From Flavobacteriales bacterium (GTDB lineage: Bacteria; Bacteroidota; Bacteroidia; Flavobacteriales_D; Crocinitomicaceae): a DNA stretch of 64,000 nucleotides. The notes under the pieces are model-generated. The model was not told the DNA's origin, did no database searches, and saw only the letters and a program-made list of their open reading frames with translations. The DNA is taken from NCBI GenBank assembly GCA_947488235.1, contig CANLAQ010000008.1, forward strand, positions 1 through 64,000. The letters are read 5' to 3'. This document shows, piece by piece, positions 31,964-34,328 of the stretch (positions are counted from its first letter, which is position 1; the number at the start of each line of letters is the position of its first letter). The position numbers were made by a program, and so were the translations under genes.

Positions 31964-32641
31964 CTATATTTTCTTCAAGCTGGTAAAAACCAAATCATTT
32001 AAGAATTCAATTATTTCACTTTCTTCTTTTTTGTTACCAAAATCAGTGAGTGATGGCAAATTATTCATGAAGAAATTCTGAAAATGTGCCATTTCAATTA
32101 TTGTGGAAGCTAAGGATTTAGGATATTTATATTTTGGAGAACATTCTAATATAATAGTTCCAATGACAGCACATAGGTCTTTGTAGGGTTTGAAAAAATG
32201 CTTTTTATTGTCTTCTTCCACCTGTTTTGTCAAATATGCCTTTGATCCTTCTGAGATAATAATCTGATGTAATAAACTTTCGTTTAAATAGCTTGTTTTT
32301 TCATCATCTTCAACTGCTGTAGCCAAAAGTTTAATTATTCTTTTTAGTTTTTCAGTTGGTTTTTTTATGTTATTGGTATGAAAACTTATCTGGAATTCGA
32401 GCCAACCCCAATACCAAGCGGTAAGGTAAATCAATAACTTATGTTTGTTTTCAAAGTATCGGTAAATACCAGCTTCTGTCGTACCAATATCTTCAGCAAG
32501 TTTCTTGAAAGTAAACGACTCAAAACCGGATTTGTAAATTAACTGAACACTATGCTTTAGAATTTTCTTTCCTAATTCCGAACTTTCCGGGTTACGGATG
32601 AAAAGTGCTTCATTCATTTTTATTTGCAATTGTAATTTCAT
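31964..32641 (-). CDS. TetR family transcriptional regulator
   Basis: The 225-aa protein has an N-terminal HTH of the TetR type: ILKHSVQLIYKSGFESFTFK, then KLAEDIGTTEAGIYRYFENK with the GxYxYF core. The C-terminal helical ligand domain is not recognisable. It is divergent from the bestrophin-carbonic anhydrase pair. A palindrome lies in the shared intergenic region, so it most likely represses or controls that pair and itself. ATG 32641 agrees with related proteins that carry about ten residues before NExLxxRNP; 32617 is an alternative. Confidence 0.92.
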   Translation of the reverse strand: MKLQLQIKMNEALFIRNPESSELGKKILKHSVQLIYKSGFESFTFKKLAEDIGTTEAGIYRYFENKHKLLIYLTAWYWGWLEFQISFHTNNIKKPTEKLKRIIKLLATAVEDDEKTSYLNESLLHQIIISEGSKAYLTKQVEEDNKKHFFKPYKDLCAVIGTIILECSPKYKYPKSLASTIIEMAHFQNFFMNNLPSLTDFGNKKEESEIIEFLNDLVFTSLKKI

Positions 32642-32674
32642 GATAATGATTTATTCCTTTTTTAGAGGAAGTGA

Positions 32675-32682
32675 CAAAGCTA
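32675..32682 (-). promoter_or_regulatory. -7 box TAGCTTTG of the tetR gene
   Basis: Exact TAnnTTTG on the minus strand, 33 nt before the tetR ATG. Confidence 0.55.
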
Positions 32683-32706
32683 CGAAAAATATTTTTACAA
32701 TTATTT

Positions 32707-32725
32707 ATGATAGTAATGCTATCAT
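32707..32725. promoter_or_regulatory. Candidate TetR operator ATGATAG-N5-CTATCAT
   Basis: A perfect inverted repeat with 7-bp arms and a 5-nt spacer lies between the divergent tetR and bestrophin promoters. Its right half covers the place where the -33 element of the bestrophin promoter should be (box TATCTTTG at 32741). Size, symmetry and position fit a TetR-dimer operator that blocks RNA polymerase. Confidence 0.65.
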
Positions 32726-32740
32726 TTTATATTTAATATA

Positions 32741-32748
32741 TATCTTTG
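32741..32748 (+). promoter_or_regulatory. -7 box TATCTTTG of the bestrophin operon
   Basis: Exact TAnnTTTG, 20 nt before the ATG at 32769. It shows that the long N-terminal extension in the ORF track is not translated. Confidence 0.6.
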
Positions 32749-32768
32749 CTGAAATATTAGATCAAATT

Positions 32769-33659
32769 ATGCTACTAAATAAACGGATACCTATTTACTA
32801 TATCTTAAACAAGGTCAAATATGATTTAATAATTGTATTACTTGTTTCTTTATCCGTTCTATTTATTACAGACAGGTACAAAGCAATATTACCTGAAATG
32901 CCTTTGACGATTCCAGCTTTCATCGGAACTGCCATATCGATTTTACTTTCATTTAAACTGAGTCAATCTTACGATAGATGGTGGGAAGCTCGAAAAGTAT
33001 GGGGCGCAATCGTTAACGACTCGCGAAGTTTAGTAATTCAATTACAAACCTTGACTGCCGAAGGAAATGACGAAACAATTAAAAAAATTGCATTTAGACA
33101 AATTGCTTGGTGTCATTCATTGGGTCAATCTCTAAGAGGATTGAACGCCACGCATAATTTAGAAAGTTTTATCTCTGAACAAGACTTGAAAGAAATAAAA
33201 CTTCATAACAACAAGCCCTTGGCGCTTCTTCAATTGAACGCGAAAGATATAAAGCAACTTAAAGATTTACATCAATTAGATGTTTTTTCACAAGTTCAAT
33301 TAGATAATACCTTAGTGCGACTTTGTGATGCTCAAGGAAAATGTGAACGCATTAAAACAACTATATTTCCTGTTACCTATCGTCTTTTTCTTCAGGGTTT
33401 AATTTATCTTTTTGTTATTACACTTGCTATTTCTTTAAGAGTAGACGGATTGTTCGAAACGCCACTTTTAATAGCTATTTCAACATCATTTTTCTTATTA
33501 GAAAAGTCAGCTAAACATATGCAAGATCCTTTTGAAAATAGACCTACAGATACAGCAATGACTGCTATTGCTAGAACGATAGAAATAAATATTAAGCAGC
33601 TACTAAAGGAATCCGAAATCCCTGATGTGCATCAAGCAGAAGGATTTTTCTTAAAATAA
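32769..33659 (+). CDS. Bestrophin family anion channel
   Basis: Inner-membrane pentameric channel family (RFP-TM); eukaryotic members conduct chloride and bicarbonate. With ATG 32769 the protein is 296 aa: MLLNKRIPIYYILNKVKYDL, two membrane helices, then FKLSQSYDRWWEARKVWGAI, the family signature after the pore. Two more helices (GLIYLFVITLAISLRV, PLLIAISTSFFLL) and the C-terminal HMQDPFENRPTDTAMTAIAR follow. The track start 57 codons upstream covers the operator and promoter and is wrong. Directly downstream lies a beta-carbonic anhydrase, suggesting bicarbonate as substrate. Confidence 0.92.
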   Translation: MLLNKRIPIYYILNKVKYDLIIVLLVSLSVLFITDRYKAILPEMPLTIPAFIGTAISILLSFKLSQSYDRWWEARKVWGAIVNDSRSLVIQLQTLTAEGNDETIKKIAFRQIAWCHSLGQSLRGLNATHNLESFISEQDLKEIKLHNNKPLALLQLNAKDIKQLKDLHQLDVFSQVQLDNTLVRLCDAQGKCERIKTTIFPVTYRLFLQGLIYLFVITLAISLRVDGLFETPLLIAISTSFFLLEKSAKHMQDPFENRPTDTAMTAIARTIEINIKQLLKESEIPDVHQAEGFFLK

Positions 33660-33680
33660 TCAATTAAAAATCAAAAAAAC

Positions 33681-34328
33681 ATGAAAACATTAACAAAAGA
33701 AATGCAAGAGGCTATAACACCATCAATGGCACTAAATTTACTTAAAGAAGGTAATCAGAGATTTGTAAATAATCTTAAAATTAACCGAAATCTTTTACAA
33801 CAGGCAAACGAAACTACAGATGGTCAGCATCCTTTTGCTGTAATTCTAAGTTGTATTGATAGTCGGACTTCTGCCGAATTAATTTTTGACCAAGGACTTG
33901 GAGATATTTTTAGCGTTCGTATTGCTGGAAATATTATCAATGAGGACATTTTAGGGAGTATGGAGTTTGGGTGTAAAGTTGCAGGTTCAAAAATTATTGT
34001 TGTTTTGGGTCATACAAAATGTGGAGCGATTAAAGGTGCTTGTGATCATGTTGAAATGGGCAACTTAACGGCATTGTTGACCAAAATAAGACCTGCAGTT
34101 GATGATGAAATACAGACAAAGGAAAATCGAAATTCTAGCAATTCAGTTTTCGTAGAGAATGTTGCTGCCATAAATGTAAATCGATCAGTTAAATCAATAA
34201 TGGAGCGCAGTCCTATCCTTAAAGAAATGATTGAAAGTGGACAAATCGGAATCGTAGGAGGTACTCATGACATATCAACAGGTGAAGTAACTTTTTATAC
34301 TGAAACAATGAATTCGGTTTCACATTAA
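33681..34328 (+). CDS. Beta-class carbonic anhydrase
   Basis: Zinc enzyme interconverting CO2 and bicarbonate. The 215-aa protein has the beta-CA zinc ligands Cys58 in ILSCIDSRTS, His111 and Cys114 in LGHTKCGAI, and the Asp60-Arg62 dyad. GDIFSVRIAGNI and SMEFGCKVAGSKIIVVLGH are family core strands. No signal peptide is visible, so it is cytosolic. It is 21 bp after the bestrophin gene and in the same predicted TetR-controlled operon. Confidence 0.95.
   Translation: MKTLTKEMQEAITPSMALNLLKEGNQRFVNNLKINRNLLQQANETTDGQHPFAVILSCIDSRTSAELIFDQGLGDIFSVRIAGNIINEDILGSMEFGCKVAGSKIIVVLGHTKCGAIKGACDHVEMGNLTALLTKIRPAVDDEIQTKENRNSSNSVFVENVAAINVNRSVKSIMERSPILKEMIESGQIGIVGGTHDISTGEVTFYTETMNSVSH

Follow-up and report, generated by a model that had tools for sequence, protein, structure and literature searches.

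Two kinds of gene partnership centred on carbonic anhydrase are already known and bear on the locus described here. Pairs and fusions of SulP (BicA-like) carriers with carbonic anhydrase (CA) are attributed in PMC10219603 to Felce and Saier 2004 and Price et al. 2004, while for the algal bestrophin-CA pathways it has been proposed that the bestrophins BST1-3 act as bicarbonate channels of the thylakoid and supply a carbonic anhydrase (PMC6708349). Likewise known are the MpsAB/DAB systems for dissolved inorganic carbon, which occur in both heterotrophs and autotrophs (PMC8567241). A stated physiological role for prokaryotic bestrophins was not found in the literature searched, and neither a bacterial bestrophin-CA-TetR operon nor an exchange of bestrophin for SulP was found described in the open-access literature, subscription papers being outside the scope of the search.

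The locus lies in a 64,000-nucleotide stretch of a Flavobacteriales bacterium genome (contig CANLAQ010000008.1, positions 1 to 64,000), referred to as the window, and comprises the following features:

31964 to 32641, minus strand: tetR, TetR-family regulator of 225 aa (PF00440, TetR_N, E 1e-9)
32675 to 32682, minus strand: TAnnTTTG -7 element (TAGCTTTG) for tetR, assigned by sequence match only
32707 to 32725, no strand: candidate operator palindrome ATGATAGTAATGCTATCAT, family core ATAGTA-N-TACTAT
32741 to 32748, plus strand: TAnnTTTG -7 element (TATCTTTG) for bestrophin-CA, assigned by sequence match, with the operator-to-TATCTTTG spacing kept
32769 to 33659, plus strand: Bestrophin_2 channel of 296 aa with the neck T-I-F and its ATG at 32769 (PF25539, E 3e-55)
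33681 to 34328, plus strand: beta-carbonic anhydrase of 215 aa (Pro_CA, PF00484, E 6e-40)

The gene content follows the original prediction closely. Coordinates, Pfam matches and residues agree on a bestrophin gene followed by a beta-CA with complete zinc ligands, with 21 bp between the bestrophin stop (33659) and the CA start (33681), and the predicted divergent TetR regulator is present across an intergenic gap of 127 bp, its TetR_N helix-turn-helix scoring 38.4 bits against a Pfam profile cut-off of 24. The zinc ligands of the CA are C58, D60, H111 and C114; the motifs C58-x-D60-x-R62, which contains the catalytic D-R dyad, and H111-xx-C114 identify it as a beta-CA (PF00484), and it falls into the PRK15219 subfamily (NF011765 of NCBIfam, 254 bits, cut-off 221). 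The flanking genes identified with Pfam, a PhoH-type PIN-ATPase upstream and an amidohydrolase and an acetyltransferase downstream, look unrelated to the operon.

The arrangement resembles the SulP-CA pairs in that an anion carrier gene stands beside a beta-CA, and within this class the CA subfamily, the TetR clade and the operator are also the same, whereas the place of the SulP carrier is taken in the window by a member of the pentameric bestrophin channel family; a SulP-CA pair is found elsewhere in the genome. With algal BST1-3 the locus shares the combination of a bestrophin and a carbonic anhydrase and a proposed bicarbonate channel (PMC6708349), but the algal proteins belong to a eukaryotic organelle, are linked to Rubisco and are not encoded in an operon, and Pfam places the Bestrophin_2 proteins of bacteria in another family. 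The MpsAB/DAB systems (PMC8567241) are similar in supplying inorganic carbon in non-photosynthetic bacteria, and DabA-like genes do occur in some sister operons, but the window operon contains neither a DabA nor a DabB gene.

The window bestrophin matches PF25539 over nearly its full length (188 bits, cut-off 27; profile positions 20-287 of 288), and this is the fitting model; the eukaryote-centred bestrophin profile PF01062, which was rejected, has no match in the window's own genome. Its nearest solved structures are KpBest variants from Klebsiella (PDB 4wd8 and 6jlf, E about 4e-33). Anion-selective bestrophins have the neck I-F-F, the middle phenylalanine being linked to anion selectivity, whereas KpBest with its I-I-F neck conducts Na+ and is moved towards Cl- by the substitution I66F (PMC8496536). 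By alignment, the window protein has T-I-F in place of I-F-F, and its CA-linked relatives all have T-I-F or T-V-F and never a middle phenylalanine. Since the neck is thus KpBest-like, anion permeation is not predicted from the sequence, and anion selectivity was dropped as an argument from the neck residues. The same resemblance to the Na+-conducting KpBest leaves room for a cation or a general pH/ion role, with the locus acting as a module against ion/pH or membrane-potential stress in which the bestrophin moves Na+/Cl-, the CA handles protons and TetR answers membrane or pH stress, a reading which we consider rather unlikely.

The association of the two structural genes was followed in 80 related bestrophin loci from a genome collection, 25 with a divergent TetR and 55 without. 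No CA lies directly downstream of 48 of the 80 bestrophins, while all 25 TetR-linked copies are directly followed by one, so that free separation of the genes in relatives, named at the outset as grounds for refutation, is partly borne out, in the sample at large but not among its TetR-linked members. Among linked relatives the bestrophin-CA gap is 12-48 bp, and most of the loci nearest to that of the window have a TetR copy 82-90% identical adjoining bestrophin-CA. CA linkage changes 15 times on the bestrophin tree, and at least seven of the changes are forced by well-supported branches, which suggests that the pairing recurs. It would then be very improbable that bestrophin and CA are mere chance neighbours, moved together by horizontal transfer without a joint function: the trees are mixed and identity is high even between families, which does show transfer or frequent exchange, and many bestrophins have no CA neighbour, but the many separate gains or losses of the pairing, the short gaps and the constancy of the CA in TetR-linked loci all argue against it. 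A Flavobacterium copy of the bestrophin is found, for example, in F. saccharophilum (L190).

The regulatory elements of the original prediction were located as well. The perfect 7-bp-arm palindrome ATGATAG-N5-CTATCAT occupies exactly 32707-32725 and covers the -33 region of the bestrophin-CA promoter, and the two TAnnTTTG promoters are found at 32741-32748 (+) and 32682-32675 (-), where about 0.08 such elements per strand would be expected in the 127-bp gap. In one genome alone the palindrome is weak evidence, because 31% of mononucleotide shuffles of the gap hold a perfect 7-bp-arm palindrome as good, and it was therefore rejected as stand-alone evidence. The comparison among relatives is decisive. 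ATAGTA-N-TACTAT is present at 12-13 of 13 positions in all 25 TetR-bestrophin-CA loci, which are related by descent (TetR identities 48% to 90%) and do not amount to 25 independent trials, and at this level in none of the 55 related bestrophin loci without TetR. In the aligned intergenic gaps of relatives, the operator and the downstream TATCTTTG are conspicuous, and the distance between them varies little. The concern that the palindrome might not be conserved is thus dispelled, and, conserved together with TetR, it is a candidate TetR operator. The same operator is also found at SulP-CA, CA-only and exporter loci of this TetR family. The window copy is the only perfect GATAGNANTNCTATC match in the 2.45-Mb assembly, which is about 89% complete, and a genome-wide regulon acting through the operator is accordingly unsupported. 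In two Flavobacterium strains (L186 and L187), the tetR-bestrophin gap holds two operator copies.

The most informative comparison concerns the membrane partner of the CA. From 295 genomes belonging to the class, CAs sharing 60-90% identity with the window CA were collected together with their surroundings. Three of these loci (L032, L033 and L057) have the window-like TetR-bestrophin-CA arrangement. At L036, L037, L039 and L046, the same TetR type diverges from a SulP gene (PF00916) ahead of the same CA; L077 and L031, two contigs of one genome, were counted with the SulP-type loci, L043 and L051 have the order SulP-CA and then TetR, and L049 has TetR and CA only. The same operator stands beside both the bestrophin and the SulP genes. 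Four further pairs (L044, L047, L050 and L055) show the gene order SulP-CA-DabA (PF10070), with no TetR match nearby. On the TetR tree, for which groups were named by neighbour gene before tree building, bestrophin- and SulP-linked regulators interleave: the window TetR clade includes the SulP-linked L077 and L039, and the TetR of the bestrophin-linked L175 groups with those of the SulP-linked L036 and L037. The AU test rejects a tree in which all bestrophin-linked TetRs form a single clade (p = 2e-49), and a minimum of four bestrophin/SulP changes is needed, so the membrane partners have been exchanged repeatedly. The CA tree similarly mixes bestrophin- and SulP-linked copies, with 5 changes and weak branch support. 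In several SulP-CA operons a DUF2490 protein is encoded directly 3′ of the CA (L036 5653-6366, L031, L035, L037 and L042).

At the level of sequence, then, it is established what the genes are, that the operator is conserved and that bestrophin and SulP replace each other next to one regulator clade and one CA family. That SulP can take the place of bestrophin while TetR clade, operator and CA stay the same supports a role in bicarbonate handling, with the reservation that the SulP family includes sulfate and other anion transporters and that its bicarbonate role here is deduced from the company of CA and DabA. The same exchange, together with DabA in sister operons, points to inorganic carbon and away from the stress module considered above, and a further TetR relative that faces SbtA (PF05982) also speaks for inorganic carbon. 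On this evidence, the locus is probably a TetR-controlled inorganic-carbon module in which the bestrophin would pass bicarbonate or a balance-setting anion and the CA would interconvert bicarbonate and CO2. The CO2/bicarbonate reading of the original prediction gains from the regulated operon, the conserved operator and the link to inorganic carbon, which rests on the SulP replacement in sister operons and not on the algal analogy alone; it is weakened by the channel neck, which resembles that of the Na+-conducting KpBest, and by the regulator, whose family mostly controls ABC/HlyD exporters.

This became apparent from the neighbours of 88 related TetRs. In more than half of them the next gene downstream is an exporter gene of the ABC/HlyD type (checked with Pfam in one example), most of L107-L164 being TetR-ABC-HlyD export operons whose operator lies near the start of tetR; fewer of the 88 face SulP, bestrophin or CA. 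As most relatives precede exporters, the label of a dedicated bicarbonate regulator was rejected for the family. The operator is present at 12-13 of 13 positions in 70 of the 88, and since the exporter operons share it, it does not reveal the TetR ligand. TetR might sense a small toxic compound, which is probably what its exporter-linked relatives respond to, and bestrophin-CA would then be a side target within a stress regulon. The prevalence of exporters with mostly the same operator favours such a role, but the clade adjoining bestrophin- or SulP-CA is usually without an exporter, none is present in the window and no second perfect operator exists in the own genome, so we regard it as improbable. 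One or a few relatives each face SbtA (PF05982), TerC, VTT/DedA, MscS or isocitrate dehydrogenase; the TerC, DedA/VTT and MscS-type membrane genes, facing the same TetR family and operator, are consistent with the stress module. These relatives include L080, L081, L087, L088, L089, L091, L096 and L102, and the same palindrome is found in all of them except L096. One regulator-operator pair may thus serve many membrane or CO2-related genes, and the DNA recognition of the TetR family appears to be old and shared, its target genes having been exchanged many times.

For the inorganic-carbon module, which remains the preferred reading, the following mechanism can be proposed. TetR would bind the palindrome that covers position -33 of the promoter for bestrophin-CA, most likely as a repressor, and would probably repress its own gene too, until an inducing signal releases it and the operon is expressed. 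The bestrophin would then let an anion cross the inner membrane, presumably bicarbonate or otherwise one setting the bicarbonate/pH balance, and the cytoplasmic CA would interconvert bicarbonate and CO2 inside the cell; which way the anion flows and what induces the operon likewise belong to the proposal. The bestrophin/SulP exchange gives bacterial bestrophins a concrete, testable role in inorganic-carbon handling and suggests that they can handle bicarbonate, and the paired bestrophin/SulP operons, some of which occur in named strains of Flavobacterium, Mucilaginibacter and Sediminibacterium, form a natural set for testing it. The broader notion that such bestrophins work as regulated channels for bicarbonate, can stand in for SulP within one operator-defined module and are a prokaryotic counterpart of the algal bestrophin-CA pathway has in our estimate an even chance of being correct; if true, the idea of bicarbonate-passing bestrophins, developed for algae, would apply to bacteria as well.

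The rest of the host genome provides a possible setting. A second CA gene lies 12 bp after a SulP gene (G000:C4, L250 3106-5648), without the operator, and given this separate pair the bestrophin-CA operon would represent a second, regulated set, which alongside it might supply bicarbonate for carboxylations or buffer the cytoplasmic pH. The genome also has a second, lone bestrophin (L251) and a rhodopsin (G000:C2, L249 1483-2199) with the pattern D-T-E in helix C, which we take to be a proton-pump motif; this makes the host a probable heterotroph with proteorhodopsin. For proteorhodopsin-bearing Bacteroidetes, bicarbonate uptake for anaplerosis has been suggested (PMC4148732). The host SulP-CA pair is preceded by a small protein of 109 aa ending in YSPPDNRI, and similar small proteins precede SulP in L037, L040, L047 and L055.
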